Shown in pieces: positions 15,976-40,572 of a DNA stretch of 64,000 nucleotides (positions are counted from its first letter, which is position 1; every line of letters begins with the position of its first letter). The DNA is taken from positions 806,001 through 870,000 of the forward strand of contig NZ_QGEG01000001.1 of assembly GCF_003149745.1 (NCBI RefSeq), read 5' to 3'. Under the pieces are notes generated by a model, which did no database searches, was not told the DNA's origin, and saw only the letters and a list, made by a program, of their open reading frames with translations. The position numbers and the translations under genes were made by a program. This stretch comes from Flagellimonas aquimarina (lineage in GTDB: Bacteria > Bacteroidota > Bacteroidia > Flavobacteriales > Flavobacteriaceae).

Positions 15976-16634
15976 ATCATTCTTCCATCTAAAAGGTTGA
16001 TAACACGAGACCCGTATTCGGCATTTTTCTCAGAGTGGGTCACTTGGATAATGGTCACCCCTTCATTGTTTAATTGCTTAAACAATTCCATGATTTCCTC
16101 TCCTTGCTTGGAGTTCAAATTCCCAGTGGGTTCATCGGCCAGAATCAGTTTTGGACTGGAAATCAATGCTCTTGCAATACCCACCAATTGCTGTTGTCCA
16201 CCACTCAACTGAGCTGGAAATAAGTCTTTCTTTCCCACAATATTAAAGCGATCCAACATATCGGCAACCATAGCTTTACGCTCAGAGCCTTTAAATTTTT
16301 TATAAAGCAACGGCATCTCTAAATTCTCTTTTACGGTTAATTCATCCAATAGATGATAAGATTGAAAGACAAAACCAATATATTCTTTGTACAAATTAGC
16401 CCTGTGCTTTTCTTTAAGTGTGTGAACAGACTCATCTAAAAAATTATATTCTCCTTCATCAAAGGCGTCTAACATGCCAATAACGTTCAATAAGGTAGAC
16501 TTACCAGAGCCAGATGGCCCCATAATAGAAATAAACTCACCTTCTTCCACATTTAGGTTGATGTCCTTTAATAAAAAGATACGTTGGCCACCAGAGTTGA
16601 CCCATTTAAAAATATTGTTAAGTTGTAAAAGCAT
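15972..16634 (-). CDS. LolD/MacB-type ABC ATPase, last gene of the large efflux operon
   Basis: A 220-residue ATPase of the LolD/MacB/FtsE group. Walker A is GPSGSGKST (about residue 39), the Q-loop region is YIGFVFQSYHLLDELTVKENLEMPL, Walker B is LILADEPTGNLN, and the H-loop is VTHSEKNAEYGSRVINL. The ABC signature reads LSGGQQQLVGIARAL, where the family normally has LSGGQQQRVAIARAL, so the Arg and Ala after the triple Gln are replaced. It lies 22 bases after the seventh permease gene and is the second ATPase of the operon. It most likely pairs with one or more of the neighbouring permeases. Confidence 0.92.
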   Translation of the reverse strand: MLLQLNNIFKWVNSGGQRIFLLKDINLNVEEGEFISIMGPSGSGKSTLLNVIGMLDAFDEGEYNFLDESVHTLKEKHRANLYKEYIGFVFQSYHLLDELTVKENLEMPLLYKKFKGSERKAMVADMLDRFNIVGKKDLFPAQLSGGQQQLVGIARALISSPKLILADEPTGNLNSKQGEEIMELFKQLNNEGVTIIQVTHSEKNAEYGSRVINLLDGRMI

Positions 16635-19068: not shown

Positions 19069-19080
19069 AGATTCTATTTT

Positions 19081-21447: not shown

Positions 21448-21466
21448 GATTTTATTTTTTAATGAT

Positions 21467-23836: not shown

Positions 23837-23846
23837 GGCTGTTTTT

Positions 23847-26246
23847 TTATTCTGTTCTTAAGCTTTTTATTGGATTGGACCGGGCAGCTTTGATGGCCTG
23901 AAAACTCACGGTCAAAATCGTAACTCCCATTGCCCCCAACATGGCCAAGGCAAAAATCCACCACTTTAGGATCACGCGATATGGGTATTCTTGTAACCAG
24001 CCATTCATAATGTAATAGGCTATGGGAACGGCAATAAAACAGGAAACAGTCACCAACTTTAAAAAGTCCTTTGAAAGCATGTTCCATACATTGAAAACGG
24101 ATGCACCCAATACTTTTCTAACCCCTATTTCTTTGGTGCGCTGTTCTGCAACAAAAGAGGTTAAACCAAATAAACCAAGACAGCTGATCAGGATGGCCAG
24201 CGCAGTAAATATGCCCGATAATGTTCCGATACGTTGCTCTGCAGCGAATTTTTCAGCATACTCTTCATCCACAAAATCATACTCAAATGGTATTGCCGGA
24301 AAGTTTTCTTTAAAAACTCGTTCAATAACGGCAAGGTTCTGATTTGCACTTTGGTTTGGGTTCAACCTTAAGTTGTAATAACTAAAATTAAAATGCCTGT
24401 CATAAACATACAATCCTTGCTTTACAGGTTCATAAGGAGATTGAGCGATCATATCTTCAACCACGCCAATAATTTTTAATGGCGGATTAGGGTCTTCTTC
24501 ATCACTATCTCTTAATAATTGTCCAATAGGGTTTTCAAGACCCAAATATTTAACGGCGGTTTCATTAATGAGAACCCCAAGGGAATCAGTTGCCATATCG
24601 CGAGAGAAATCTCTTCCCTGAACAATTTTTAAGTTGAGGGTTTTTGCATATTCTGGGGAGACCTCTGTCCATGCCAAATCCTCCTGAAAACCTTCGGGCT
24701 TTCCCTCCCATGTAAAGCCACTTCTATTTGACCAAATTCGAGTTGTTGGACTGCTAGAGGTTGCCATTTCAACCGCTGCTCCAGAGTTGATAAACTGCTC
24801 GCGCATCAAATCGGTTTTCCCCTCAAAATCCTGGCTGAACGTAGGTACTTGAATCAAGCCTTCTTTATCATAACCAATGGGCCTATTTTTAGCATGGTTG
24901 ATTTGTTGCATAACAATTACGGTTCCTATAATAAATGCAACGGAAACCGTAAATTGTAGTACTACCAAAATCTTTCTTGGAAGTCCTGCATATTTACCTG
25001 CTTTGAAAGTGCCTTTTAAAACATCTACCGGCTTGAAGGAAGACAGGTAGAGCGCAGGATAACTACCCGCCAATAAAGCAGTAAATGCAATGAAAAGCAA
25101 TGAAACCAACCAGAAACCGGGATTGCTCCAAGGAAATTCAATTTCTTTTCTTGCTAGTTCATTAAATCCGTTTAAACATAGTAATACAATTGATATTGCC
25201 ATTAGATAGGCGAACAGCACCACTAAAAATGACTCACTTAAAAATTGATTTATCAACTGTCTTCTTTGAGAGCCTATGGATTTTCTAATACCGACCTCTT
25301 TAGCTCTTTTCTCTGATCGCGCAGTACTTAGGTTCATAAAGTTTATGCATGCCAACAATAGTACAAAAGCGCCAATAATACCAAAGAGCCAGACGTATTT
25401 TATGCGACCGCCGACTTGTTTTCCATTTTCAAAATTATTGCGCAAGTACCAGTCATCCATGGGCAACAGAAAGATTCTTGGATTAAATTCGGCAGTATCT
25501 TCATTGGCATCTTTTTTAATGTTCAATATAGCGTTGGTCACACTTTCCATTGTGGTGTTTTCAGCAATTTGCACAAAGAGTTGGAAAGAATTATTGCCCC
25601 AATTGTCCAATGAGTTTTCAATCCATTCATTGGTGTTCACATAATGTGTCCAAGGCATTATATATTTTAAATCCCGAAACGAGCTGTTGTAGGGCATATC
25701 TTTATAAACGGCACTAACCATCATGTCATGCTCATTACTGATTCGCACTGTTTTTCCAATAGGATTTATATCGCCAAATAGAGCATCAGCCGTAGATTCT
25801 GACAGCATTATGGAATTCACTTCACGAAGCCCGTCTTTTTCTCCTTTCAAAACCTCAAGGCCCAATAACTCGGGTGCTTCACGTTGCATGTAATTGCCAG
25901 GTCTGGAAAGGTAGGTTTCTTCATATTTTAGGTAGGAGTCATTGGTCCAAGAGGACATGATTAGATACTTAAAATTATCATTAAACCCATTTCTTAATGC
26001 AGGCGCTAACGGTAAAGGAATAGCAGGCCCAGTTCCAGTGTTGTTATTAAATGTTTGTGATTGGAAAACTTGGGCAAATTTAGCCTTATTGGCAAAGTTT
26101 TTATCATGGGTCAGCTCATCCTGTATCCAAAGACCAATGATTAGCGTAACGGCCATCCCCAAGGCTAGACCACCAACGTTAATAAGCGTGTAGGCCTTGT
26201 TCTTTGTTAAGTTCCTCCAGGCTATTTTTAAATAATTCTTTAACAT
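23847..26246 (-). CDS. FtsX/MacB-type ABC permease, copy 4 of 7
   Basis: 799 residues beginning MLKNYLKIAWRNLTKNKAYT. The FtsX motifs are KEVGIRKSIGSQRRQLI in the first unit and KEIGVRKVLGASVFNVW in the second, and it ends NPIKSLRTE. About eight helices and two periplasmic domains are predicted, as in its neighbours. In the first unit the usual KV(L)GA is changed to KSIGS. It sits in the middle of the permease array and has no ATPase gene of its own. Confidence 0.92.
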   Translation of the reverse strand: MLKNYLKIAWRNLTKNKAYTLINVGGLALGMAVTLIIGLWIQDELTHDKNFANKAKFAQVFQSQTFNNNTGTGPAIPLPLAPALRNGFNDNFKYLIMSSWTNDSYLKYEETYLSRPGNYMQREAPELLGLEVLKGEKDGLREVNSIMLSESTADALFGDINPIGKTVRISNEHDMMVSAVYKDMPYNSSFRDLKYIMPWTHYVNTNEWIENSLDNWGNNSFQLFVQIAENTTMESVTNAILNIKKDANEDTAEFNPRIFLLPMDDWYLRNNFENGKQVGGRIKYVWLFGIIGAFVLLLACINFMNLSTARSEKRAKEVGIRKSIGSQRRQLINQFLSESFLVVLFAYLMAISIVLLCLNGFNELARKEIEFPWSNPGFWLVSLLFIAFTALLAGSYPALYLSSFKPVDVLKGTFKAGKYAGLPRKILVVLQFTVSVAFIIGTVIVMQQINHAKNRPIGYDKEGLIQVPTFSQDFEGKTDLMREQFINSGAAVEMATSSSPTTRIWSNRSGFTWEGKPEGFQEDLAWTEVSPEYAKTLNLKIVQGRDFSRDMATDSLGVLINETAVKYLGLENPIGQLLRDSDEEDPNPPLKIIGVVEDMIAQSPYEPVKQGLYVYDRHFNFSYYNLRLNPNQSANQNLAVIERVFKENFPAIPFEYDFVDEEYAEKFAAEQRIGTLSGIFTALAILISCLGLFGLTSFVAEQRTKEIGVRKVLGASVFNVWNMLSKDFLKLVTVSCFIAVPIAYYIMNGWLQEYPYRVILKWWIFALAMLGAMGVTILTVSFQAIKAARSNPIKSLRTE

Positions 26247-26268
26247 TACAGTTTGTTTTTTGATGTGA

Positions 26269-28704
26269 TTATTCTGTTTTGAGGCTTTTAACAGGATTTA
26301 CTACGGCTGCTTTTATGCTTTGATAGCTTACGGTTAAAATGGAAATCAAGGCTGCTAAAAATGCTGCAAGTATAAATACCCACCAGCCCATTTGAATCCT
26401 ATAGGAAAAGTCCTCCAACCACTTATCCATGGCAAACCACCCAAGGGGGAGAGAAATAAGAATGGAAACCCCTACCAATTTTAGAAAATCTATGGTTAGC
26501 TTATAGGTAATTTGGCCAACGCTGGCCCCCAATACTTTCCTAACCCCAATTTCTTTGGTTCTTTTTTCAGCATTAAAAGCGGCTAAACCAAATAATCCAA
26601 GGCATGCGATTAATATGGAAAGGGTGGTGAAAATGAAAAAAATATGGCTTAGACGCTGTTCTGATCTATAGGTCTTATCGAAGGAGTCTTCCATAAAATA
26701 ATAATCGAAAGGTTGCCCAGGGGCCGCCTTGTTCCAAATGCTCTCAATGCTTTTAATGGCATTGGAAAAATTACCTGCCTCCAGTTTTACAGCGAGTGAA
26801 TATGCCCAATCACCCAAGTGGAGACTCAAAGATTCTATTTCCTCCCTAAAAGGAGAAAAATGAAAATCCTTAACCACTCCAATGATGGTATAGTATTTTG
26901 GGTTTTCAGAACCCATATCAGGAGTATAGCGCTTGCCAATAGCTTCGTTAGGTGGAACTCCAATAACAGTCAATGCGGATTCATTGATAATGATACTGGT
27001 GGAATCATTTTTATATTGTCTGTCAAAATTTCTCCCAGCAATTATTTTAAAACCCATCGTTTGAACATAATCGTAGTCAACACCCCAGCGTTGCATGCTC
27101 AGAGCATTCTCCTGGTCTGAAGCACCCTCTTCAGGAGTAAAAGTGCTGTCTGACCTACTCGAAGGAGTTGGAAAAAAGCTGCTTAAGGTGGCGTTCTTAA
27201 CAATGCCCAAGCTCTGTACCTCTTCTTTAAATGAGGTCACTTGATTGCCTATGGCAAACACATCATTGATGATGAGCACTTGATCTTTTGAAAAACCTAA
27301 ATCTTTATTCTGAATATATTTTAATTGCTGATAAACAACCAAAGTGCTAACAATTAGAAAAACGGAAATTGCAAATTGAAATATGACCAGCCCATTTCGA
27401 ATTTTCCCACCACCAAGATTATTGCCACTTGATCCTTTGAGCACTTTTACCGGCATAAACTTTGACATAAAGAACGCAGGGTAGCTACCTGAGAAAAACC
27501 CCAAAACAACACCTGATGCTAATAGAATTAGCCAAAAAATTGGATTTGCATACGGTATGGAAATAGCCTTATCTGCCAAATTATTGAAAAAGGGCAGTGC
27601 AATTATAGCTATTAGAATGGCCAACAGAAGTGCACCAAAAGAAACCAATCCCGATTCTATCAAAAACTGACGGATAAGCTCCCCTTTCCTGGAGCCCAAT
27701 GTTTTACGAACGCCTACTTCCTTAGCCCTTTTTAGAGAATGTGCAGTAGAAAGGTTCATAAAATTGACACAGGCCAGAACAATTAGAAATATAGCTATGA
27801 AAGAGAGAATGTATATGCTTTTAATATCATTGTTTGCACTTATTTCTGCTACGCGATCAGATTTTAGATGGATATCAGTTAATGGTATTGTGCTATAGAT
27901 TAAGTGATTTCCTGCTGCTTTGAACTGCTCCTCTGTAATACCCGGCATAAATTGTTGTACTCCAGGAACCACATATTTACCCAAAAAACCACGCAAAGGT
28001 TCTTGTATATTATCAACATTGGCATAAGGGATAAGTTTCGCAAAGGTTTGGTAATTATTACTGCCCCAATTCACTATGCGGGAATCATCGTAACCAGCCA
28101 TTGCCATAAAAACGGTATGATCTCTTAGAAATGAATTGTTTGGGAAATCATCAATTACTCCTGTTACCGTGTACGTTTCCTGATTGTTCAATAAAAGTAC
28201 TTGGCCTAAAGCTTCATTAACTCCAAAATGTTTTTCTGCGGCGGTTTTGGTCAGGACCAAAGTTTGAGGCAATTTGAGAGCTGTATTTACATCTCCGGTT
28301 AAAAGTGATACCCCAAACATTTTGAAAAACGTAGAGTCTACATAGGTGGTTTGCAGCTCTTTTACATTCACTTCGGTGTCTGTTTTTCTGATTAAAGCAC
28401 TACCCCTTGTCCTAAATCGTGTGGTCAATTCAACTTCTGTAAAGTCATTGTCAACTGCTTCTGCCAGTGGTGCTGGAGTTACAGCAAATTCACGTGCTTC
28501 ACCACCAAACTTTATATCTACATTGATTCTATGTATGCGATCTGCATCTGCGAACATTTTGTCAAAACTCAATTCATCGTAGATATATAATGAGATTAGA
28601 AGTCCGCCAGCCATACCTATAGCAAGGCCAAAGATGTTCAGAAATGTAAAAAACGGCTGTTTTTTAAGATTTCTCCAAGCAATTTTGATATGATTTTTAA
28701 ACAT
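26269..28704 (-). CDS. FtsX/MacB-type ABC permease, copy 3 of 7
   Basis: 811 residues beginning MFKNHIKIAWRNLKKQPFFT. The motifs are KEVGVRKTLGSRKGELI and KEIGVRKVLGASVGQIT, and it ends NPVKSLKTE (Lys for the usual Arg). Helix 1 is FLNIFGLAIGMAGGLLISLY. The second periplasmic domain carries the pattern GVVKDFHFSPFREEIESL, seen in variant form in all seven copies. It lies 22 bases before copy 4 and 22 bases after copy 2. Confidence 0.92.
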   Translation of the reverse strand: MFKNHIKIAWRNLKKQPFFTFLNIFGLAIGMAGGLLISLYIYDELSFDKMFADADRIHRINVDIKFGGEAREFAVTPAPLAEAVDNDFTEVELTTRFRTRGSALIRKTDTEVNVKELQTTYVDSTFFKMFGVSLLTGDVNTALKLPQTLVLTKTAAEKHFGVNEALGQVLLLNNQETYTVTGVIDDFPNNSFLRDHTVFMAMAGYDDSRIVNWGSNNYQTFAKLIPYANVDNIQEPLRGFLGKYVVPGVQQFMPGITEEQFKAAGNHLIYSTIPLTDIHLKSDRVAEISANNDIKSIYILSFIAIFLIVLACVNFMNLSTAHSLKRAKEVGVRKTLGSRKGELIRQFLIESGLVSFGALLLAILIAIIALPFFNNLADKAISIPYANPIFWLILLASGVVLGFFSGSYPAFFMSKFMPVKVLKGSSGNNLGGGKIRNGLVIFQFAISVFLIVSTLVVYQQLKYIQNKDLGFSKDQVLIINDVFAIGNQVTSFKEEVQSLGIVKNATLSSFFPTPSSRSDSTFTPEEGASDQENALSMQRWGVDYDYVQTMGFKIIAGRNFDRQYKNDSTSIIINESALTVIGVPPNEAIGKRYTPDMGSENPKYYTIIGVVKDFHFSPFREEIESLSLHLGDWAYSLAVKLEAGNFSNAIKSIESIWNKAAPGQPFDYYFMEDSFDKTYRSEQRLSHIFFIFTTLSILIACLGLFGLAAFNAEKRTKEIGVRKVLGASVGQITYKLTIDFLKLVGVSILISLPLGWFAMDKWLEDFSYRIQMGWWVFILAAFLAALISILTVSYQSIKAAVVNPVKSLKTE

Positions 28705-28726
28705 GATCTTTCGTTTTTAGTGTATT

Positions 28727-31162
28727 TTATTCTGTCCTTAGACTTTTTAATGGTTGAATTAACGCTGCACTTATGGACTGATAGCTTATAGTGAGCATAG
28801 CTATACTCAATGCAATTAGCCCTGCCATAATAAAAGTGGTCCAATCCAATCCTGTTTTGTATGCGAAATCCTCCAACCATCGGCTCATCACATACCATCC
28901 AACAGGTATGGCCATAATAATTGAAACACCAACAAGTCTCAAAAAGTTAATGCTCAACAGACTATATATATTTTTGAAAGAAGCTCCTAAAACCATACGA
29001 ATGCTGATTTCCTTTTTGCGCTGCTCTACCATAAATGCTGATAGTGCAAATAACCCTAAGCATGCAACAAGAATTGCTAAAATTGAGAAAGAAAGAAAAA
29101 TGGTTCTTATCCGGGTTACATTGGCATACATTTTAGTAAAAGAGTCGTTCATAAAAGCGTACCGAAATGCCATATTGGGGGAAAATTCATTCCATTTTCT
29201 TTCCACCTCTTTCAAGAGGGAAGCGATGTCTCCTGTACCTACTTTTAAAGAAATTATGGAAGGGCTAATGCCTCTAAAAAAACATAGCGGTTGCACTTCT
29301 TGCTTTAAAGAATTAAAATTGAAATCTTCAACAACACCAATTACTTCGTAAAGCCTACCATACCTGGATATTTTTTTACCAATGGGATTATCAAGGTTAA
29401 GTTTTTTGGCCATGGTCTGATTGATTACAATAGATTCATCATCACTAATCTTATCTATGGAGAAATTTCTTCCTTCCACCAATTTAATCCCCAAGGTTTC
29501 CAGATAATCTTCATCCACTACCCAAGCCTGTCCGGGAACGGTTTCGTCCACATTATCTCTACCTTCATTTACAAAGCTATTGCCATTTCTTTTTGTTCCT
29601 TCAAGAGGCAAATAGTCACTTATACTTGCATTGGTGACCCCGTTTATTTTTTTAAGCTCATCCTTAAAAGTATCTACCTTATCACCCATAATATTGGTTC
29701 CGTAGAGCTGAATTACTTCTTCTTTTTCAAAACCTAGTTTAGAGTTGAGAATAAAATCCATCTGCTGATTTACAATAAGGGTTCCAATGATTAAAATAAT
29801 TGAAATGGTAAATTGAAATACAACAAGGCCACTTCGTAATGCATTGGATTTACTGCCAGTGCTAAGCTTGCCCTTAAGTACAGCTACTGGACGAAATCTT
29901 GATAAATAAAAAGAGGGGTACAAACCTGCAAGCAAACCTACCGTCAATGCGGAAGTAAAAAGAAGAGGAACAAACAGGGGGCTAGCAAACGGCAAACTCA
30001 ATGCTTTTCCAGAGATGCGGCCAAAAAGCGGCATCATTAACCAAGCTATTGCCAAGCCTATAACAAAGGAAATGAAAGAAAGTAAAACAGACTCAGTCAA
30101 AAATTGACCAACGAGATAACGTTTGGGCGCCCCTACTACTTTTCTAACCCCTACCTCTTTGGCTCTATTCGCGGATTTAGCAGTTGAAAGATTTACAAAA
30201 TTGATGCTGGCAATGACCAAAATAAACAAGGCCACTATACCAAAAATCCATATAATCTTAATGTCGTTTCTTGAGCTGGCCTCAAAATCAATGTCATTTG
30301 AATATAGATTTATATCGGTCAAAGACTGTAATCCAATGGAAAGTCGATCTTCGAGATTTCCTGCCATGGCAAACCCACCTGCTTCAAACGCGGGCATTAG
30401 GTAATCTTTGATGATATGATTTGAGATTTTCTTTTGAACCTGCGGGATATTCGTTCCACTCTTCAGGGTGATGTAGGTAAAATAGTTGTTTTGTGTCCAT
30501 CTTGTTTGTTCCCCTTCCCCAAATTCAACACCGGACAGGGTTAGCATAAAATCGTAATCTAAGTGGGAGTTGCTGGCGAAGTCTTCCATAACCCCATTGA
30601 TTCGAAATGGTTGGTCATTGTTTCCATTTAGATATATTGATTTTCCCACCGGATTACTTTCTCCAAAGTACTTTTCAGAAATGCTATTGGAAATCACAAT
30701 AGTACCTGGTTCGCTAAGGGAAGTTGGCGCATTTCCATAGACCATTTGGATATCCATAATGTCCATAATGGACTGATCCGCATAAGCAAAGCCATCCTCA
30801 TGATATTGCGTGGGGCTCCCTTCCAATCGAATTTCATTACTGCCCGCTCCATAAAACAATCCGTTATCCATTATTCTTCCCGCATTTTCAACTTCAGCAA
30901 AATCATTTAGCACAGTACTTGCCATAATGGCTGAAAAATGAATGCCACCCCTTACATTACCATCCTGGATAATGGCATTGGTCATTCGATAAATGTTGTT
31001 GGAATTTGCTACATGTTTGTCATAACTACTCTCATGGATGATGTAAATTGAAATTAGGATACAGGCGGCTACACCAAAACTAAGACCAATGATGTTGATT
31101 AAAGTGAACCCCTTGTTTTTTAAGAGACTTCTCCACGCGACTTTTATATAGTTCTTTAGCAT
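28727..31162 (-). CDS. FtsX/MacB-type ABC permease, copy 2 of 7
   Basis: 811 residues beginning MLKNYIKVAWRSLLKNKGFT. The first FtsX motif is KEVGVRKVVGAPKRYLV. The second is KEISIRMVLGASFKNIY, in which two usually invariant positions (Gly to Ser, Lys to Met) are changed, the only copy with this deviation in the second unit. It ends QPLKSLRTE. This copy might couple differently to the ATPase, since that loop is where FtsX permeases meet the nucleotide-binding subunit. Confidence 0.92.
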   Translation of the reverse strand: MLKNYIKVAWRSLLKNKGFTLINIIGLSFGVAACILISIYIIHESSYDKHVANSNNIYRMTNAIIQDGNVRGGIHFSAIMASTVLNDFAEVENAGRIMDNGLFYGAGSNEIRLEGSPTQYHEDGFAYADQSIMDIMDIQMVYGNAPTSLSEPGTIVISNSISEKYFGESNPVGKSIYLNGNNDQPFRINGVMEDFASNSHLDYDFMLTLSGVEFGEGEQTRWTQNNYFTYITLKSGTNIPQVQKKISNHIIKDYLMPAFEAGGFAMAGNLEDRLSIGLQSLTDINLYSNDIDFEASSRNDIKIIWIFGIVALFILVIASINFVNLSTAKSANRAKEVGVRKVVGAPKRYLVGQFLTESVLLSFISFVIGLAIAWLMMPLFGRISGKALSLPFASPLFVPLLFTSALTVGLLAGLYPSFYLSRFRPVAVLKGKLSTGSKSNALRSGLVVFQFTISIILIIGTLIVNQQMDFILNSKLGFEKEEVIQLYGTNIMGDKVDTFKDELKKINGVTNASISDYLPLEGTKRNGNSFVNEGRDNVDETVPGQAWVVDEDYLETLGIKLVEGRNFSIDKISDDESIVINQTMAKKLNLDNPIGKKISRYGRLYEVIGVVEDFNFNSLKQEVQPLCFFRGISPSIISLKVGTGDIASLLKEVERKWNEFSPNMAFRYAFMNDSFTKMYANVTRIRTIFLSFSILAILVACLGLFALSAFMVEQRKKEISIRMVLGASFKNIYSLLSINFLRLVGVSIIMAIPVGWYVMSRWLEDFAYKTGLDWTTFIMAGLIALSIAMLTISYQSISAALIQPLKSLRTE

Positions 31163-31183
31163 GATGTTTCGTTTTTTGATTTA

Positions 31184-33571
31184 TTATTCTGTTCTCAAGC
31201 TTTTTACAGGACTTGCAACTGCCACTTTTAGTGTTTGGTAACTAATGGTAATCAGCGTAATTGCCATTATGGAAATTATGGCGAAGACAAAAACCCACCA
31301 ATGTATTTCAGTTCTGTAAGCGTAACCTTGAAGCCATTGCTCCATTAAGTACCATGCAATTGGTGTTGCAAGTACACCAGCGATAAGAATAAGTTTGAAA
31401 AAATCTACCGTGAACAGGGTCAAAATATTGACAACGTTGCTCCCCAACACTTTTCTTATTCCGATTTCCTTAGTGCGTTGTCCCACAAAAAATAGGATGA
31501 GGCCATATAGTCCCAAACAACCAATTAATATTGCTAGGCCAGAAAACACTTTGGAAAGTGATAAATACCGTTGTTCTGTTTCATATTGTTTAGCAACCCT
31601 TTCATCCAAAAAGCGATATTCAAAAATATATCCAGCAAAAGCGTCTGACCATGTTTCTCCAATTTGATCTAAAGTGGAGGCTGTATTTTGGTGATTTATT
31701 TTAAGGGCAATCTCTCCATACCAATTGTTGTTTGCGGTAATAAAAACAGGATTAATCTGCTCCGTAAAATTGGAATCGTGAAAATTTTGTACCACACCGA
31801 CTATGGTTCCGGTCATTCTTCCACCGTTAACCTCTATTTTTTTTCCAATTAGTTCTTCCGAGGTAGCTAGGCCTAATTTTTCGCCAAGCCTTTCATTTAC
31901 AAGCAGCTCTGTAATGAGGGAATCACTTTCAAAGAAGTTTCTGCCCGCCACAAGAGGGATGTTAAAAGTTTTTAAATAGTTTACATCTCCTATTTTTGCC
32001 TCTATACTAAACTCTTCAACTTCAGGTCTGTTATGATACTTTACTCCTGTTCCCCAATTATTTTCAGCTGCGCCAGGGCTACTTAAACATGCGGAAACAT
32101 TTTGTACTCCAGTAATTTGGCTTAATCTCTCTTTTAAACTATTAAGCTTAATGCGTTCTATATCTGTAGGTATTTCTACCATGACAATGGATTCCTTATC
32201 AAACCCTAAATCGGTATTTACAGCGTAATCAATCTGTCTTGAGATAATCAAGGTGGCAGCAATAAGGGTGATGGATATTGCAAACTGTGCAATTACCAAC
32301 ACCTTTCTGGTAGTAGTGCCTCCTGTGTCGCTATGGCTTAGTTTCCCTTTAAGTGCGAGTACGGGAACAATGCGAGCCATTAATATTCCTGGGTAACTTC
32401 CAGATAAGAATGCAACCAAGGTTAGGATCAAGGTTAAAAATCCGAAGAATCTATAATTTAAAAGATCCCTCCAGGATAATTGTAGTTCAAAAAGATTATT
32501 GAACGAGGGAAGAAAAGCCAAAGCAAGAGCAACACCCAATATGATTGCAAACAGGCTGATCACAAAAGTTTCGGATAAGAACTGCCAAAATAAATGTTGT
32601 TTAAAACTCCCCAGGACCTTACGAACCCCAATTTCCTTGGACCGATAAAAAGCCTGCGCGGTTGAAATATTGATGAAGTTGATACAAGCTATTGTAATTA
32701 AAAACAAGCCAATGATTGCAAACACCCATAAAAGAACAGGATCCAAACCGCCATAAAGGGGATTGAAATGAATATCCGATAGCGGTTGTAGTTTATAAAT
32801 GTGTTTGTTCTTTTGCTTTGGTCTATGTTTTTCAGGGAGTTCGAGCAAAACGTTTTCAATAGATGAAATATTTTGGCCTGGATTTAAAAGAGCGTAAGTC
32901 TGCAGATTACTGGTTATCCCTCCCCAACTTTCCGAAGCTGCAAACTCAAAAAAATCATTTAGGTTTTCAAAAGAGACAAAAACCTCCCGATCTAAAAAGG
33001 TGGTTTTGGGAATGTTTTTTAGAACACCGGTAATTTCTATTGTCTTTTCATTTTGTAAAACAAAAGTTTCTCCTACAACATCTGTTTTTCCGAACATTTT
33101 TAGCGAGACCGCTTCCGTAAGTACAGCCGTATTTGGTGCTGAAAGAGAGATGTTATTGCTGCCATTGACCAGAGGGTAGTTGAAAATCTTGAAGAAATCT
33201 TCCTCCACAAAAGCTACATCTTGTTTAAACTTATCGGTTACTCCATTCTTCTCAACATCTATTATAAGGCCATCTTGGCTTGAGATTTTAGCTACCTTAT
33301 CTGCATACTCATAGTCCTCCCTAAAGGTCTTGGCAAAAGCAGGTGGAACACTGGGTTCAAACTCTATTAAATCTCTATGCTCCTCCGTGGCCATTCTATA
33401 AATACGATCAGAGTTGGCATGGAAAGTATCAAAAGAAAGATGATAGCTTAAGAACAAATAAATTAAGATGCCGCTACCAAAACCAATGGCAAGGCCCAAA
33501 ATATTAATGGCCGTAAAGACTTTTCTTTTTTGAAGGTTCCTCCAGGCAATTCTTATATAGTTCTTAAGCAT
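31184..33571 (-). CDS. FtsX/MacB-type ABC permease, copy 1 of 7
   Basis: 795 residues from MLKNYIRIAWRNLQKRKVFT. The frame is open another 53 codons upstream, but that stretch overlaps the end of the ATPase gene and does not resemble the family, so I reject it. The motifs are KEIGVRKVLGSFKQHLF and KEIGIRKVLGSNVVNIL, and it ends SPVKSLRTE. It is the first permease of the array and lies 43 bases downstream of the first LolD-type ATPase gene, with which it probably forms the basic transporter unit. Confidence 0.92.
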   Translation of the reverse strand: MLKNYIRIAWRNLQKRKVFTAINILGLAIGFGSGILIYLFLSYHLSFDTFHANSDRIYRMATEEHRDLIEFEPSVPPAFAKTFREDYEYADKVAKISSQDGLIIDVEKNGVTDKFKQDVAFVEEDFFKIFNYPLVNGSNNISLSAPNTAVLTEAVSLKMFGKTDVVGETFVLQNEKTIEITGVLKNIPKTTFLDREVFVSFENLNDFFEFAASESWGGITSNLQTYALLNPGQNISSIENVLLELPEKHRPKQKNKHIYKLQPLSDIHFNPLYGGLDPVLLWVFAIIGLFLITIACINFINISTAQAFYRSKEIGVRKVLGSFKQHLFWQFLSETFVISLFAIILGVALALAFLPSFNNLFELQLSWRDLLNYRFFGFLTLILTLVAFLSGSYPGILMARIVPVLALKGKLSHSDTGGTTTRKVLVIAQFAISITLIAATLIISRQIDYAVNTDLGFDKESIVMVEIPTDIERIKLNSLKERLSQITGVQNVSACLSSPGAAENNWGTGVKYHNRPEVEEFSIEAKIGDVNYLKTFNIPLVAGRNFFESDSLITELLVNERLGEKLGLATSEELIGKKIEVNGGRMTGTIVGVVQNFHDSNFTEQINPVFITANNNWYGEIALKINHQNTASTLDQIGETWSDAFAGYIFEYRFLDERVAKQYETEQRYLSLSKVFSGLAILIGCLGLYGLILFFVGQRTKEIGIRKVLGSNVVNILTLFTVDFFKLILIAGVLATPIAWYLMEQWLQGYAYRTEIHWWVFVFAIISIMAITLITISYQTLKVAVASPVKSLRTE

Positions 33572-33614
33572 GATGATTGTTTTTTGATTGTTGAATAAAC
33601 TCCTCGAGTTGTTC

Positions 33615-34310
33615 TTATACCATGGCTCCCATAGGTTTGTTTTGACTTTCTGTAACAATTTGTCCATCGAACAAGTTGATGACCCTATGAGCGTAATGGG
33701 AGTCTCTATCGGAATGGGTAACCATAACAATTGTTGTTCCCTCTTGATTTAATTCTGTAAGGAGGTTCATCACTTCAATTCCGTTCTTAGAATCCAAGTT
33801 TCCCGTAGGTTCATCTGCAAGAATCAATTTAGGATTTGTTACTACGGCTCTTGATATTGCTACCCGCTGTTGTTGACCACCAGAAAGTTGTTGTGGAAAA
33901 TGTTTTTCGCGATGCGCAATTTTCATGCGTTCCAAGACTCTTTTTACATTCTCTTTGCGTTCAGATTTGTTCATTTTTAAATAAATCAATGGGAGTTCCA
34001 CGTTTTCATAAACAGTCAACTCATCAATTAGGTTAAAGCTTTGGAAGACAAAGCCCAAATTTCCTTTTCGTAATTGAGTTCGCTGGCTTTCCCGTAATCC
34101 CCCAACTTCATGTCCAGCAAATTGATAACTTCCTTCAGTAGGATTGTCCAACATACCAATGATGTTTAACAAGGTTGATTTTCCACAACCTGAAGGCCCC
34201 ATGATTGCAACGAACTCCCCTTCTGCCACTTTAAGGTTTACGCCATTCAATGCTAATGTTTCTACTTCTTCTGTTTTGAAACTTTTTTTTAGATTCTGTA
34301 TTTGTATCAT
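33615..34310 (-). CDS. LolD/MacB-type ABC ATPase, first ATPase of the efflux operon
   Basis: 231 residues from MIQIQNLKKSFKTEEVETLAL; a 12-codon upstream extension is not needed. Walker A is GPSGCGKST, the signature LSGGQQQRVAISRAV, Walker B LILADEPTGNLD, and the H-loop VTHSDRDSHYAHRVINL. The sequence EGEFVAIMGPSGCGKSTLL is typical of the MacB/LolD group that powers FtsX permeases. With seven permeases and only two ATPases in the operon, this subunit is presumably shared by several permeases. Confidence 0.94.
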   Translation of the reverse strand: MIQIQNLKKSFKTEEVETLALNGVNLKVAEGEFVAIMGPSGCGKSTLLNIIGMLDNPTEGSYQFAGHEVGGLRESQRTQLRKGNLGFVFQSFNLIDELTVYENVELPLIYLKMNKSERKENVKRVLERMKIAHREKHFPQQLSGGQQQRVAISRAVVTNPKLILADEPTGNLDSKNGIEVMNLLTELNQEGTTIVMVTHSDRDSHYAHRVINLFDGQIVTESQNKPMGAMV

Positions 34311-34420
34311 TTTTAATAGGTATTGTTTTTTAAACTTTTTGGCCAAGGTTCTTTAAAGACCAGTTTTGTATTGCTTTGTTTCAGTGTATCTGTAACTACG
34401 CCTTATTTTTTTTCATCAAT

Positions 34421-35041
34421 TTAATCTGCATTGATTCCCTTTTTATAAAGGGTTAGACAAATGGCCCTAAAACCAAGGTCCATTTCCTCTTGCTCATCTT
34501 CTATGTATTCAATAGAATCTAGATCGAAATAAACTTCATAAGGAGAGAAGCCTTTAGGCAGATAGTTTGCGGTGTTAAAACCCAATTCCACAACATCATC
34601 TTCTATGTAGTTAATAGAGTCAACCCCAACAATGTCAGTATAAGAATCAAACCCTTCAGGTAAATTGGATGATGTATTAAACCCTATTTGCAAATTGTCT
34701 TCATCCTCAAAATAAATGATGGAATCAAAATCGAAATAGATTTCATAAGGATTGAAACCTTCAGGAAGATAAGCGGAGGTGTCAAAACCCAAATCAATTT
34801 CTGAATCTTCTTCTACAAATTCAATTTCATCTAAATTCAGTGTAGCGGTGTTTACGATTGGCTGATGAGAAACTTTTGAAATTTCTCTGATTATATCAGC
34901 ACTGATGTTTAACACTGCGGGACTGTTCTCAAACGTGCCGACAATTTTAGCCTCAGTGACCATTGTCGTACTTTGTTGTTCTTCTGCTACGGCGGTACTA
35001 CCTATGAGTAAGCATCCGTAAATCATTAATAACTTGTTCAT
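34421..35041 (-). CDS. Secreted acidic repeat protein of the efflux operon
   Basis: 206 residues with an N-terminal signal peptide (MNKLLMIYGCLLIGSTAVAEE) and a strongly acidic body. From about residue 84 there are three full imperfect repeats of about 35 residues of the form LGFNTxxYLPxGFxPYExYFDxDSIxYIEDE. They are preceded by the tail of a repeat (DEIEFVEEDSEID) and followed by the first residues of a fourth, degenerate one (LGFRA...LYKKGINAD). I do not recognise a characterised family. The gene is 13 bases downstream of the HlyD gene and upstream of the first ATPase, so it is co-transcribed and probably periplasmic or exported. It could be a substrate, an accessory factor or a ligand-binding protein. 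Confidence 0.7.
   Translation of the reverse strand: MNKLLMIYGCLLIGSTAVAEEQQSTTMVTEAKIVGTFENSPAVLNISADIIREISKVSHQPIVNTATLNLDEIEFVEEDSEIDLGFDTSAYLPEGFNPYEIYFDFDSIIYFEDEDNLQIGFNTSSNLPEGFDSYTDIVGVDSINYIEDDVVELGFNTANYLPKGFSPYEVYFDLDSIEYIEDEQEEMDLGFRAICLTLYKKGINAD
34478..34792 (-). repeat. Three tandem ~35-codon repeats inside the secreted acidic protein
   Basis: The units begin at residues 84, 119 and 153, each starting (L/I)GF(D/N)T and containing LP(E/K)GF and DSIxYxED, with spacings of 35 and 34 residues. The copies are diverged, so this is a protein-level repeat rather than a recent DNA duplication. Confidence 0.75.
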
Positions 35042-35053
35042 TTTTTGATGTAT

Positions 35054-36304
35054 TTATTTTAAAACTATTCTTTCAGCAGTTCCAAAGCTGTCGTAGTTGC
35101 TGGTAATTACTTGTTCGCCAGCTTCTAACCCTTCTAGCACTTCGTAATATCTTGAGTTTTGTTTTCCAATTCGAATATTTCGTTTTACCGCTTCGTTTTC
35201 ATTTGCGCCCACTACAAAAACCCACTGCCCTCCTGTACTTTGAAAAAACCCTCCTTTTGGGAGCAGTAATGCATCATTAGAAGCACCAAGCTGTAACTTT
35301 ATATTATAGCTCTGACCTGCTCTTATGGTTTCTGGTTTATCATCTGTAAAAACCAAATCCACTTTAAACCTTCCATTCCTAACTTCTGGATATACCTTGC
35401 GTAACCGCAGACCGTATTCTTTTCCATTTCTTTCTAAGGTGGCTGAAAGATCTCTCTTTATACGATCTATGTAGTGTTCGTCTATTTCGGCTTCAATTTT
35501 AAAATCCGTGAGCACATTAATTTGGCCAATACGTTCACCTTGGGCTATGCTTTGTCCTATTTCAGCATCTAAAAACCCTAATTGACCATCTGCCGGGGCC
35601 CTAACGTTTAAATGGTCCAAACGCTCATATACCATGGACAAGGTCTTTTGCATGCGCTGTAGATCTGTGTCCAAACCAGTAAGTGAGGTTCTTCTTAATT
35701 GATCATCTTGTTCAGTTTGAATTTTGATGATATCATATTGTTTTTTAGACAGTTCATAGTTTTCCTTTGCTGTTAAATACACTTCCTTAGAAACCAGTTC
35801 GTCTTTGTAAAGTGCCTCATTTTGCTCATAATTTCTTTTAAGGCGTTGCAAATCATATTCAGCGGTGGCCAAAGATCTTTTTCCTTCTACTTGTCTAGAA
35901 TCAAAGGTCAATTTAGTGGACCGTAAATCATTTTGCTTAAGCGCCAGGTTGCTTTCGCTCGCCAAGATTTGCTCATATAGCATCATGTTCTCCAGTTTTA
36001 AAATGATATCCCCTTTTTTCACCATTGTACCTTCTTCTATAAGCTTTTCAGATACCCGGCCTCCTTCATATGCATCCATATAAATAGTTGCGATTGGGGC
36101 TACAGAACCGTTTATGGTAATGTAATCATCAAACTTACCTTGGGTTACTTGTGCTATTGAAAGGCGTTCTTTATCTGTCCGAAAAGTGGATACAGAATTT
36201 GCAAAAAGCAATTTCCACCCTGTAAATAGGACCAAGACACCTAAGGCAATGTATCCATAATGTTTTGGTCTTAATCCTTTTCTTTTTTCGAGTTGTATAT
36301 CCAT
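35054..36304 (-). CDS. HlyD/MacA-type periplasmic adaptor (membrane fusion protein)
   Basis: 416 residues. A single N-terminal membrane helix (HYGYIALGVLVLFTGWKLLFA) anchors the protein in the inner membrane. The barrel-sandwich (lipoyl) halves are at about residues 60-110 (NGSVAPIATIYMDAYEGGRVSEKL...VKKGDIILKLEN) and 235-260 (VRAPADGQLGFLDAEIGQSIAQGERI). Between them is a long coiled coil (about 110-225). A beta-barrel and membrane-proximal domain follow. It would bridge the FtsX permeases to the TolC protein encoded just upstream. It is the only adaptor in the operon, so it is presumably shared by all the permeases. Confidence 0.93.
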   Translation of the reverse strand: MDIQLEKRKGLRPKHYGYIALGVLVLFTGWKLLFANSVSTFRTDKERLSIAQVTQGKFDDYITINGSVAPIATIYMDAYEGGRVSEKLIEEGTMVKKGDIILKLENMMLYEQILASESNLALKQNDLRSTKLTFDSRQVEGKRSLATAEYDLQRLKRNYEQNEALYKDELVSKEVYLTAKENYELSKKQYDIIKIQTEQDDQLRRTSLTGLDTDLQRMQKTLSMVYERLDHLNVRAPADGQLGFLDAEIGQSIAQGERIGQINVLTDFKIEAEIDEHYIDRIKRDLSATLERNGKEYGLRLRKVYPEVRNGRFKVDLVFTDDKPETIRAGQSYNIKLQLGASNDALLLPKGGFFQSTGGQWVFVVGANENEAVKRNIRIGKQNSRYYEVLEGLEAGEQVITSNYDSFGTAERIVLK

Positions 36305-36312
36305 TCGTTTGG

Positions 36313-37653
36313 TTAATTAAGATTAAAAATAGGTAGGCCATTATAGAAATCTATGGTGCTTTTGTTCACTTTTAATCGCAGTCCTACCTGTAAATTTTCA
36401 TTTTGAGTTACGCCATATAAATTTTTTGCCTGAAAAAGATCTATGGCGTTGATAAGACCCTTTTCATATCTTTTTTGTGCTATACTGAATGCTAATTCTT
36501 GAGCTTGAACTCTTTTGTTGCTTTGCTCATATTCTACCATTAAAGCTTGATTGGTCTGCACCAATTGTTGTAAAAGTTGAAATAGTTCTTGTTCTTGAAT
36601 ATCAAGATTGGTTTTAGCTTGCTGATAGGCTATTTTTTGTTGTTTCACCCTTGAGTGATTGGACCAGCCCATGCTAATGGGAATATTGATTTGTGCTCCG
36701 GCAAAACGAGCAAAGTTATCACTGATTTGATCCGAAAATGGAATGATATCATCATTGTCATCAAGATTTGTTTCAGAAAACCTTGTTGATAGACCGGCAA
36801 CCAAAGAAATTGAAGGATACAGACTTCCTCGCGTAGCTTGCAGTTGTTTTTTCGCAGCATAGACCCTAAACTCTTGTGATTTTACCAGGGGAACAAAACT
36901 TCTGGCGACTTCATAAATCGAATCTATAGAGACCTCATCATTCAAGGCAGTGGATACTGGGTCAAGTGTGGTCTGTAGTTGTATATTATTTTCTTCATTT
37001 AGATTCATTTCCTGAAGTAGGGTAAGCTTTGCCAGGGCCAACAAATTTTCATTCTGTGTAACTAAAAGCTTATCGCCCAAAAGATTAGATTCGGCTTCGT
37101 ACAAATCAGCTTTGGCCATAACCCCTAATTCCACTTGTTTTTTAACTAGGTCATAATTAGATTGTGAAATCTCCAGTTGTTCTAAGGAATTGGTCACTAA
37201 GCCTTCGTTGAATTTTATATCATAAAAAGCGCTCATCACCCTAAAAGCCAAAAGGAACTTTTCTTGCAACACGTCTTCTTGGGTGGCTTTGTATATAAAT
37301 TTGGTGGCCTTTATAGTATTCAACTTCTGAAATCCTTGAAAGAGATCAACATTCGCATTTAGGCTATAGCGGTTACTATAAAACTCATTGTTTACCAGAA
37401 CTCCTGTCTGTGGATCTTCTATTAGACCAGAGTTATATATATAGTTGGAAAAACCGGTTACATTTGGTAATAGGTCTCTTACAGATTGTCTATAGGTTTC
37501 TTTTCCGGCATCTTTATTATGGGTTGTGTTTTTTACTTGAAGGTTATGCTCTATTGCATAAGAAACACATTCATCCAAAGTCCAAATCTTTTGACCAAAC
37601 CCTGTTAAGGATGCTAAGAAAACTAAAATTGTGATGTATGTTTTAATTGTCAT
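36313..37653 (-). CDS. TolC family outer membrane efflux protein
   Basis: 446 residues with a cleavable signal peptide (MTIKTYITILVFLASLTGFGQ) and two OEP repeats rich in long helices. The first begins WTLDECVSYAIEHNLQVKN, and the internal repeat contains YEAESNLLGDKLLVTQNENLLALAKL. The C-terminal part has AFSIAQKRYEKGLINAIDLFQAKNLY, another typical OEP segment. It forms the outer-membrane channel of the tripartite pump and is the promoter-proximal gene of the operon. The start codon lies only about 14 bases from the predicted sigma-54 transcription start. Confidence 0.94.
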   Translation of the reverse strand: MTIKTYITILVFLASLTGFGQKIWTLDECVSYAIEHNLQVKNTTHNKDAGKETYRQSVRDLLPNVTGFSNYIYNSGLIEDPQTGVLVNNEFYSNRYSLNANVDLFQGFQKLNTIKATKFIYKATQEDVLQEKFLLAFRVMSAFYDIKFNEGLVTNSLEQLEISQSNYDLVKKQVELGVMAKADLYEAESNLLGDKLLVTQNENLLALAKLTLLQEMNLNEENNIQLQTTLDPVSTALNDEVSIDSIYEVARSFVPLVKSQEFRVYAAKKQLQATRGSLYPSISLVAGLSTRFSETNLDDNDDIIPFSDQISDNFARFAGAQINIPISMGWSNHSRVKQQKIAYQQAKTNLDIQEQELFQLLQQLVQTNQALMVEYEQSNKRVQAQELAFSIAQKRYEKGLINAIDLFQAKNLYGVTQNENLQVGLRLKVNKSTIDFYNGLPIFNLN

Positions 37654-37677
37654 AATTCATTACTGTGCCAAACTATT

Positions 37678-37693
37678 TGCTATTCTCGTGCCA
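37678..37693 (-). promoter_or_regulatory. Sigma-54 (-24/-12) promoter of the efflux operon
   Basis: Read on the minus strand the sequence is TGGCACGAGAATAGCA. The consensus is TGGCACG-N4-TTGCA, so only one position differs, and the essential GG and GC are at the correct spacing. The predicted start is near 37667, with a leader of about 14 bases to the tolC ATG. A perfect 9-bp inverted repeat, AACTATTTG (37671-37679) and CAAATAGTT (37692-37700), brackets the promoter. The neighbouring divergent gene encodes the type of activator sigma-54 requires. Confidence 0.85.
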
Positions 37694-37755
37694 AATAGTT
37701 AATAAATTGATTATCAAATAATTGCATTTGTTTATTGAAGTAGAAGGATTTTATA

Positions 37756-37796
37756 GTGTAAAATTTTTATACAAAAAATGTCCAATTATTTTACAC
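37756..37796. promoter_or_regulatory. Candidate upstream activator site of the NtrC-type regulator
   Basis: A perfect 9-bp inverted repeat, GTGTAAAAT (37756-37764) and ATTTTACAC (37788-37796), separated by 23 bases and centred about 90 bases upstream of the sigma-54 promoter. This is the usual distance for enhancer sites. A direct repeat GTCCAA (37780-37785 and 37798-37803) overlaps it. Confidence 0.5.
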
Positions 37797-37855
37797 GGTC
37801 CAAAAATTTACAATCTCAATTCGTAGTTTTAAATCGAATATGAAGAACAGCCCAA

Positions 37856-39220
37856 ATGATTGATGCTAAGATTTTAGTGATTGATGATAATAAAAGCGTG
37901 CTAAGTGCTTTGGAGATTTTATTGCAATTTGAGTATAAAAGTGTTCAAACGCTTTTTAATCCAAATCAGATTTCTTCTTTTCCTAATATGGAGCAGATTG
38001 ATATTGTTCTTCTGGACATGAATTTTTCTGCAGGGGTGAATACGGGTAATGAGGGATTGTACTGGCTAAATGAAATCAAGAAGAAATCACCTAACACATC
38101 AGTAATTATGATGACTGCGTATGGCGCAGTAGATTTAGCAGTAAAGGCGTTAAAGCAAGGAGCCTCTGATTTTGTCTTGAAGCCATGGAACAATGAGCGG
38201 TTATTGACAACAGTGAAATCTGCACACGAACTCAGAAAGTCCAAGGAAGAGATACACAAGCTAAAAAAGAAGGAAAGCAACTTAAAGCAAGTGATCAATG
38301 CAGATAAAAATTTCATCATTGGAAATTCTAAAGCGTTGACCTCGGTTCTCAACTTGGTTAGAAAAGTGGCCAAAACAGATGTAAATGTTTTGATAACTGG
38401 GGAGAATGGAACTGGAAAGGAATTGATTGCGCGTGAACTGCATCGGCTATCTTCCAGAAAGGATGAGGTTTTTATCGGTGTAGATATGGGGTCTATTGCT
38501 GAAAACCTATTTGAAAGCGAACTTTTTGGGCACACCAAAGGTTCTTTTACAGATGCCAAGGAAGATCGATCTGGAAAATTTGAAGCAGCTCACCAAGGTA
38601 CATTGTTCTTAGATGAAATGGGTAATCTATCCCTTCAAATGCAAGCTAAATTATTATCGTCCATTCAAAACAAATCGGTGGTAAGGGTAGGTTCCAACAA
38701 ATCGATTAATGTGGATATACGATTGGTTTGCGCCACCAATTGCAACTTAGAACAGATGGTCGCCGATGGTCTTTTTAGAGAAGATCTATTGTACAGAATA
38801 AACACCATTCAAATTGAAGTTCCCCCTCTACGGGAAAGAGGAGATGATATCATGATTTTAGCAGACTTTTTTCTGAAAAGATTTGCAAATAAATATGACA
38901 AGCCCGGGTTACGAACAAATAGCATGGCCCAAGAGAAATTGATGGAATATTCATGGCCAGGAAACGTAAGAGAGCTGCAACACACTATGGAGCGGGCGGT
39001 AATTCTTTCTGAAGGAAATGTTTTAAAACCAACGGACTTCTTGCTACATTCAAAGCCAGCACAATCTATGGAAAATGGGCCCGCAACCTTGGATGAAATG
39101 GAGTTGCAAATGATTTCTAGGGCGCTGGACCAAAATGACGGAAATTATAGTGCAGCTGCAGATCAATTGGGCATTTCTAGACAGACCCTTTACAACAAGT
39201 TGAAAAAAAAGAATAAATAA
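37856..39220 (+). CDS. Sigma-54-dependent response regulator (NtrC type)
   Basis: 454 residues in three domains. The receiver (1-120) has the acidic pocket IDDN and phospho-acceptor Asp54 in IVLLDMNF. The AAA+ domain (about 155-385) has Walker A GENGTGKE and Walker B GTLFLDEMG. The C-terminal Fis-type helix-turn-helix is NYSAAADQLGISRQTLYNKL. The sigma-54-contact loop reads GSFTDA instead of the classical GAFTGA; GAFTDA-like variants are common in Bacteroidetes, the Ser less so. It is divergent from the efflux operon, whose promoter has the sigma-54 consensus, so it is almost certainly its activator. It overlaps the kinase gene by one base (TAATG). Confidence 0.96.
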   Translation: MIDAKILVIDDNKSVLSALEILLQFEYKSVQTLFNPNQISSFPNMEQIDIVLLDMNFSAGVNTGNEGLYWLNEIKKKSPNTSVIMMTAYGAVDLAVKALKQGASDFVLKPWNNERLLTTVKSAHELRKSKEEIHKLKKKESNLKQVINADKNFIIGNSKALTSVLNLVRKVAKTDVNVLITGENGTGKELIARELHRLSSRKDEVFIGVDMGSIAENLFESELFGHTKGSFTDAKEDRSGKFEAAHQGTLFLDEMGNLSLQMQAKLLSSIQNKSVVRVGSNKSINVDIRLVCATNCNLEQMVADGLFREDLLYRINTIQIEVPPLRERGDDIMILADFFLKRFANKYDKPGLRTNSMAQEKLMEYSWPGNVRELQHTMERAVILSEGNVLKPTDFLLHSKPAQSMENGPATLDEMELQMISRALDQNDGNYSAAADQLGISRQTLYNKLKKKNK

Positions 39221-40572
39221 TGGCGAGCAGAAACTTTTATGTACAGCTCATTTTTAGAGTGCTCCTAATTACGTTAACTGCCTTGGCTTTGGCCTTTGCG
39301 ATTTTTAAGCCGTGGTACTTTACCTTAGCTTTCTCTGCTATTTTTCTTGTTGCTCAGGTATATTCACTAATAACTTTTATCAATAGCACCAACCGTAAGA
39401 TTGCTTACTTTTTTGATGCGATCCGCAATGAAGATTTTACGCTGAGATTCCCAGAAAAAGTTTCAATAAAATCCTTTAAGGAGCTCAACCAGAGCCTGAA
39501 CAGGGTAAATGGTCTTATTCAAGAAGTACATTTACAATTGCAGATAAGGGAACAATATTATCAAGAGATTCTAAAGCAGGCAAGTATAGGGATCATGACT
39601 TTCAATGAAAAGGGTCACATACTTTTTTCTAACCCTACCGTAGAAAAATTGCTGAACTATACCCCTTTGAATCATATTAAGCAACTTGCACAAGTTGATG
39701 AAGGTCTGTATCAAGTTTTTAAATCATTTAAACCATTTGACAGAAAACTGTTCCAACTTACCAATGAGCGAGAACAAATACAATTAGCACTTAAATCCAC
39801 ACCCATTACGTTAGATGAAAAATCACTCATATTGGTTGTGGTTCAAGATATTCATGAAGAGCTTGATGAAAAAGAGACTGAATCGTGGGTGCGGCTTATT
39901 AGGGTGCTTACCCATGAAATTATGAATACGATCACCCCAATAGCCTCAATTTCGGACTCAATAATAAAGTATTTCAAGAAAGAGGGTAAGGTAGTACCAT
40001 CTAACAGCTTAGATGAAACTCAAATTAAGAATACATTAAAAGGATTGGAAGTAATAAAAGAGCAAGGAGGAAACCTAATGGATTTTGTACAATCTTACCG
40101 TAGCTTATTGAATGTTCCTGAACCCAACAGAGCGATAGTGAGCGGAAAAAAGCTATTGGGAAAAATTGAAGTTTTAATGTCGACCAGACAGGAAGAAGGA
40201 TATACTAATTTCAAAACAGAATGCAATCCTGAGAACTTGGAATTCTTTATTGATGAAAAACAGATTACCCAAGTATTGATTAATCTTGGGAAAAATGCCC
40301 TTCAGTCCATAAAGGAAACCAAAAAAGGACAAGTACACATAGTTGCAGGTATCGAGAATGATGGAGTAAAATATATTGAGGTAAGAGATAACGGTCCAGG
40401 AATACCGTCAGATTTAATAGATGAAATTTTTGTTCCTTTTTTCACCACTAAGAATGAGGGCACAGGTATTGGATTGAGCTTATCTAAGCAAGTAATGCAA
40501 TTGCATGGAGGGAGTTTAAAAGTTAGGTCGGTTCCAAATCAAGAAACCGTTTTCAGATTGGCCTTTACGTAA
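39220..40572 (+). CDS. Sensor histidine kinase with very short external loop
   Basis: 450 residues. Two membrane helices (about 10-29 and 32-53) are joined by only a few residues, so there is essentially no periplasmic sensor domain. Next come a HAMP-like/linker region (about 55-110), a PAS-like domain (about 113-210), and a dimerisation region with the phospho-accepting His232 in RVLTHEIMNTITPI. The ATPase domain shows the N-box NLGKNALQS, DNGPGIP and GTGIGLSLSKQ. It forms a two-component system with the preceding regulator. The signal must be read in the membrane, in the cytoplasm, or through another protein such as a permease. Confidence 0.95.
   Translation: MASRNFYVQLIFRVLLITLTALALAFAIFKPWYFTLAFSAIFLVAQVYSLITFINSTNRKIAYFFDAIRNEDFTLRFPEKVSIKSFKELNQSLNRVNGLIQEVHLQLQIREQYYQEILKQASIGIMTFNEKGHILFSNPTVEKLLNYTPLNHIKQLAQVDEGLYQVFKSFKPFDRKLFQLTNEREQIQLALKSTPITLDEKSLILVVVQDIHEELDEKETESWVRLIRVLTHEIMNTITPIASISDSIIKYFKKEGKVVPSNSLDETQIKNTLKGLEVIKEQGGNLMDFVQSYRSLLNVPEPNRAIVSGKKLLGKIEVLMSTRQEEGYTNFKTECNPENLEFFIDEKQITQVLINLGKNALQSIKETKKGQVHIVAGIENDGVKYIEVRDNGPGIPSDLIDEIFVPFFTTKNEGTGIGLSLSKQVMQLHGGSLKVRSVPNQETVFRLAFT

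Follow-up and report, generated by a model that had tools for sequence, protein, structure and literature searches.

The window examined here, the whole 64,000-nucleotide stretch of Flagellimonas aquimarina DNA, carries a set of ABC export genes on the minus strand and, divergent from them, a two-component pair on the plus strand. The genes are listed below, all positions being those of the window.

15972..16634, minus strand: ABC ATPase 2, last gene of the presumed operon
16657..33730, minus strand: seven MacB_PCD/FtsX permeases of about 800 aa each, end to end
33615..34346, minus strand: ABC ATPase 1 (domain search)
34421..35041, minus strand: 206-aa protein with internal LGF-N/D-T...LPEGF repeats
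35054..36304, minus strand: HlyD/RND-type periplasmic adaptor (domain search)
36313..37653, minus strand: TolC-family outer membrane efflux protein, first gene of the operon (domain search)
37856..39220, plus strand: NtrC-type response regulator, the presumed activator
39220..40572, plus strand: histidine kinase, its presumed partner

From tolC down to 15972 all genes lie on the minus strand, with overlaps or gaps of at most 74 bp, and from this gene order we infer that the 21.7 kb are read as one transcript. Across the operon, sequences resembling terminators or sigma-70 promoters were no commoner than in shuffled sequence and so speak neither for nor against this. The parts of a MacAB-TolC-type exporter are all present (TolC, adaptor, ATPase and MacB_PCD/FtsX permease). 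The likeness to the darobactin exporter DarBCD and to MacAB-TolC, as represented in NCBIfam, lies in the MacB_PCD/FtsX permease, the adaptor and the LolD/MacB-like ATPase; however, the scores fall below the equivalog cut-offs, and the exporter here has seven tandem permeases and two ATPases. Two of the seven permeases gave an NCBIfam match to ADOP below its cut-off, and a literature search for ‘duplicated orphan permease’ listed one paper, taxonomic judging by its title. The best match of the first permease sits at varying places in relatives, and the array may therefore vary in its make-up among them. The 206-aa repeat protein, encoded between adaptor and ATPase, had no match in Pfam or NCBIfam; of 80 named loci, chosen as the best among 154 relatives, 10 gave a tblastn match to it.

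The regulator has a PF00072 receiver, a PF00158 sigma-54 AAA+ domain and a PF02954 Fis-type HTH, and its best solved relatives are NtrC-family regulators. One RpoN (PF04552, E 6e-52) is encoded in the genome, which also has five strong sigma-54 activator domains, that of this regulator, whose gene adjoins the site described below, among them. In the kinase, hydropathy indicates two hydrophobic stretches joined by few residues, with a very short outer loop, alongside a sub-cut-off PAS match; sensing within the membrane or via the transporter is suggested for this protein.

The probable promoter core and its upstream elements

Between the divergent genes lies the 16-mer TGGCACGAGAATAGCA (37693-37678, minus strand), which the original prediction described as a near-perfect sigma-54 promoter. 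Letters, coordinates and strand agree with its claim of a consensus match at all but one position with the right GG-GC spacing: the site has GG-N10-GC, shows one mismatch to TGGCACG-N4-TTGCW, and departs from TGGCACGNNNNTTGCW only in TTGC, where A replaces T. It does lie just above tolC, adjoining the NtrC-type activator gene; the tolC start codon (37653) is 40 bp downstream of the first base of the 16-mer and the activator gene begins at 37856. In sigma-54 promoters transcription starts about 12 bases past the -12 C. The following elements were recognised around this site.

37666..37670, minus strand: second TGGCA, 23 bp exactly below that of the -24 element and spanning the predicted start (C at 37667)
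37678..37682, minus strand: -12 element, TAGCA
37688..37693, minus strand: -24 element, TGGCAC
37712..37724, minus strand: IHF-like box YAANNNNYTGATW (CAATTATTTGATA), between dyads and core
37757..37773, minus strand: predicted activator dyad 2, TGTATAAAAATTTTACA
37779..37795, minus strand: predicted activator dyad 1, TGTAAAATAATTGGACA, its centre 22 bp from that of dyad 2
37824..37831, plus strand: TAGTTTTA, candidate -7 box of a housekeeping promoter of the regulator

By itself the core motif is at chance level and proves nothing. At up to two mismatches the window holds six matches against 6.8 expected, and six or more were obtained in 62 of 100 shuffles. The motif scan alone was rejected as evidence, its matches being no commoner than expected, and the two-mismatch sites within the operon (18979 and 30909, minus strand) were taken as chance. 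Over the 3.6 Mb genome TGGCACGNNNNTWGCW, a pattern loosened to fit the site, has its single exact match here; with one mismatch allowed it gave 24 sites, compared with 16 for the reversed pattern. What raises the motif above chance is that it is conserved and that its distance from the activator sites hardly changes.

This conservation was followed through related genomes. Activator orthologues (at least 76% identity) were present in 59 of 60 same-genus genomes, the own genome counted, the 60th genome being 83% complete. tolC is divergent from the activator gene in 58 of 58 same-genus loci, with a gap of 198-205 bp in 53; from this set G014 (contig start) and paralogues of about 40% identity were left out, and L105 is without an activator start. 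The best 80 of 154 relatives were taken, the nearest named ones being Allomuricauda/Flagellimonas. The family-level search gave 35 matches, of which 8 were already in the sample, 20 were added and 7 were left out. Dropping identical 200-bp upstream regions and L198 (contig end) reduced 158 loci to 119 distinct ones, and with 11 distant loci (L126-L136) counted apart, 108 loci with a family-level activator and tolC remained.

The promoter stood up to this comparison. The TGGCAYRNNNNTNG core (TGGCAY-R-N4-T-N-G), which comprises the -24 box together with T and G of the -12 element, was found in all 108 distinct loci at no more than one mismatch and exactly in 106; the two remaining cores start with C (CGGCAY) and were placed by means of their dyads. 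Within the -12 element T and G are invariant (108/108), these letters having also served to choose the sites, whereas the C of the GC is not conserved (37/106) and carries 0.15 bits over all loci. The description ‘near-perfect’ therefore suits the F. aquimarina site but not its orthologues. With this C excepted, the element columns average 1.3-2.0 bits against 0.54-0.55 elsewhere, both in the 108 loci and in 20 hand-picked divergent loci.

Upstream of the core are twin dyads, two tandem 17-bp TGT-N11-ACA sequences, exact in 90 of the 108 loci and within one mismatch in 102; twin dyads are poor in 6. In 2160 trials with letter-shuffled upstream regions, a twin dyad with no more than one mismatch arose twice. 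The distance from dyad 1 to the -24 box is nearly fixed: among 88 loci with exact dyads and an exact core it is 102 in 80, 101 in 6 and 103 in 2. The spacing is kept in L117, L118, L199 and L216, where extra DNA parts the dyad-core unit from the activator gene. With up to three mismatches allowed, the genome holds a single copy of the 39-bp dyad pair, which suggests that the regulator may have a single target. The intervening YAANNNNYTGATW is the reverse complement of the IHF consensus, WATCARNNNNTTR. This box is exact at offset -31 in 60/108 loci and within one mismatch in 89/108, and an exact copy anywhere in the spacer was found in 62/108 loci, compared with a mean of 1.0 and a maximum of 4 in shuffles (n=100).

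A more distant set of 18 loci had activators of 47-58% identity; not all of these loci are independent, since L131 nearly duplicates L132 and certain genomes contributed a pair of loci. The dyad letters differ in L098-L103 and L127-L136, often reading TGTTCG...CGAACA, with the same twin layout. A looser dyad pattern detected twin dyads in 14 of the 18, and not in L101, L104, L126 and L133. The cores, taken as the best matches in the region, had 0 to 4 mismatches; those of L099, L100 and L102 are fully canonical, with TTGC and 0 mismatches, and L104 has no credible core. The dyad-to-core distance is 90-92 in 10 of these loci, 102-103 in 2 and 105 in 2. Going from 102 to about 91 removes one helical turn, which fits a need for activator and polymerase to lie face to face, and the spacing of 105 is off by about 3 bp. 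At some distant exporter loci the first gene in line encodes a product of some 119 aa whose start is signal-like.

The loop through which such activators contact sigma-54, GAFTGA in the textbook form, reads GSFTDA at 82 of 110 loci and GAFTDA at 28 (not deduplicated). F. aquimarina has GSFTDA in this regulator and GAFTGA in two other activators, and the non-GAFTGA loop leaves a small doubt. On the regulator's own side, TAGTTTTA falls in well conserved alignment columns (53 loci) and is possibly the -7 box of its housekeeping promoter (compare TAnnTTTG; consensus from PMC9723704). Self-control of the regulator is also possible, because its upstream region overlaps the dyads.

A second TGGCA at the predicted start site

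The TGGCA lying over the predicted start is exact at +23 in 84 of the 108 loci and at +24 in 8, and no exact second TGGCA was found in these loci at any other offset in the range 16 to 45. Where tolC begins at its usual distance (79 loci) the element is exact at +23 in 70; where the distance is unusual (29 loci) it is exact at +23 in 14 and at +24 in 4. Its position appears tied to the promoter and not to the tolC start codon, if less tightly in the second group. A role as a ribosome-binding feature of tolC is weakened by the 14 of 29 loci that keep +23 with another start distance but, the element being less regular there, keeps some likelihood; a second sigma-54 core was rejected, there being no conserved T-N-G at the required distance. 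Among the distant exporter loci TGGCA is exact at +23 in 5 of 18.

A second clear sigma-54-type site is present in the own genome (L001:2560-2575; G000:C2:531211-531226), 60 bp above OsmC. It follows directly after the gene for a cNMP-binding sigma-54 activator, and the promoter is unrelated to that of the exporter. Sigma-54-type sites were found in 21 of 24 OsmC-type loci, being absent in L263, L265 and L266. In these 21 promoters (L243-L262 among the loci) TGGCA is exact at +23 in 9 and within one mismatch in 17, and the IHF-like box is exact in 16, at -32 or -31.

Searches for the combination elsewhere gave a narrower picture. Sites matching TTTTGGCACRNNNNNTGCW, which are candidate promoters, numbered 20, in 15 of 100 family genomes, with 7 control matches. 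Nine are without a covering open frame, and one of the nine is the own OsmC promoter. The other eight non-coding sites showed no TGGCA at +23 (up to one mismatch) and no exact IHF-like box, and the 11 sites inside open frames had neither feature. The pairing of IHF-like box and TGGCA at +23 as a general property of the family's sigma-54 promoters is thus not supported, given its absence at these eight sites. With one mismatch allowed, the double-TGGCA pattern matched the own genome 26 times and the reversed pattern once; 24 of the 26 are in open frames, and outside them only the exporter site and OsmC were found. The combined pattern at up to three mismatches returned the exporter site and one other match (three mismatches), OsmC being missed because its IHF-like box is one base further off.

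The second TGGCA is hence a feature of some flavobacterial sigma-54 promoters, not of all. Initiator, polymerase trap and overlapping housekeeping promoter are possibilities for its role. Tentatively, and as an idea we consider less than probable, a subset of promoters may have an extended architecture, with an IHF-like box 31-32 bp above the -24 element and a start-forming TGGCA at +23 that acts as an initiator or as a trap or pause for sigma-54 polymerase, which would make control stricter than a relaxed -12 box could by itself. Among the literature matches listed, a start-site TGGCA has apparently not been described.

Proposed control of the exporter and its wider context

Core, twin dyads and IHF-like box are conserved in place across loci, which argues for a classical sigma-54 enhancer promoter. 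Our main reading, to which we give a probability of about 0.92, is that a sigma-54 promoter serves the divergent tolC-adaptor-ABC export operon and that the site forms the -24/-12 core of this promoter. On the basis of the observed elements with their near-fixed spacing and of the gene domains, we infer the following course from signal to transcript. An envelope or transport signal would lead the kinase (39220-40572) to phosphorylate the regulator (37856-39220). Some 100 bp above the core, the regulator would bind the tandem pair of 17-bp dyads on the same DNA face, and a bend at the IHF-like box between dyads and core would allow its AAA+ ring to meet the waiting sigma-54 polymerase. The polymerase would then open the DNA at about 37667 and transcribe tolC, and probably all genes down to 15972.

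Chance resemblance of the core to a sigma-54 site, with tolC read from an ordinary promoter, agrees with the unremarkable number of matches in the window; it is very hard to reconcile with a core that 108/108 loci share and whose distance from conserved dyads barely varies, and we regard it as highly improbable. A different sigma factor might instead act with the dyad-bound regulator, since some NtrC-like proteins with altered GAFTGA loops work with other sigma factors. The GSFTDA loop at 82/110 loci and the relaxed -12 C are consistent with such an arrangement, yet every locus retains the -24 box together with T and G of the -12 element, the loop is GAFTDA in 28/110, and the distant L099, L100 and L102 have a fully canonical TTGC core, making this very unlikely.

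An overlapping housekeeping-type promoter is a somewhat more serious alternative, though still an unlikely one. Here TAGTTTGG near the start would be the -7 box (like TAnnTTTG or TAnnTTGY) and the TTTTGG of the -24 box would supply a -33 TTTG, giving either basal expression beside sigma-54 induction or a promoter on which sigma-54 does not act. The TA at offsets 18-19 (37674-37675) is moderately conserved, but the spacing is short for the class. The transcript-start work describes -7 boxes of flavobacteria and includes an operon that combines a sigma-54 promoter with one of the SM5 type (PMC9723704). However, the conserved letters run on into GGCA, which that class leaves unexplained, and the OsmC promoters have TGGCA at the same place without the TTTG. 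The sigma-54 enhancer promoter remains our preferred reading of the site.

NtrC/NifA-type sigma-54 enhancer promoters with an IHF site are well known, for example at nifH. The exporter promoter resembles them in its -24/-12 core, its upstream dyads, the IHF-like box between and the activator-kinase gene pair nearby. Its own features are the TGT-N11-ACA dyads at 22-bp centres, the near-fixed IHF-like offset, the relaxed -12 C, the second TGGCA and an ABC export target. The type of promoter is therefore already known, and it is the start-site TGGCA element that is unexplained.

A link of this kind has been predicted. According to the parts considered here of a 2025 computational survey, promoter matrices predict sigma-54 control of COG0577/FtsX-like antimicrobial-peptide permeases; the link is enriched in gamma-Proteobacteria, Opitutia and Bacteroidia, and first evidence is claimed (PMC12316311). 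Permease class and sigma factor are the same as at the present locus, whereas those parts of the survey contain no activator, upstream sites, spacing or gene-level anatomy and do not name Flavobacteriia (PMC12316311). In Flavobacterium psychrophilum, a member of the same bacterial family, a transcript-start map (2021) assigns chaperones, gliding motility and envelope genes to the sigma-54 (SM4) regulon (PMC9723704). Its promoters are of the same -24/-12 class, with starts mapped and one promoter mutagenised, while the tabled selection has no efflux operon (PMC9723704). A 2011 comparative analysis, as far as its considered part goes, links sigma-54 to the cell exterior (PMC3162934). Literature searches pairing sigma-54 with Bacteroidetes, flavobacteria, Bacteroides or efflux gave no other title on such a promoter among the matches listed. 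The earlier statement that sigma-54-controlled efflux in this phylum is little described was accordingly fair, at least with respect to the survey's prediction (PMC12316311) and the tabled selection without an efflux operon (PMC9723704).

The locus thus offers a complete, testable control model for a large ABC export operon in marine flavobacteria, in which regulator, kinase, sites, core and predicted start are placed to the base. For the predicted tie of sigma-54 to antimicrobial-peptide-type permeases in Bacteroidota, it adds the anatomy at the level of genes. Because the spacing is nearly fixed, and about one helical turn shorter in some relatives, the locus provides a natural series for enhancer phasing. 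The start-site TGGCA, if functional, would be an unfamiliar sigma-54 promoter element and is the part that could prove new.
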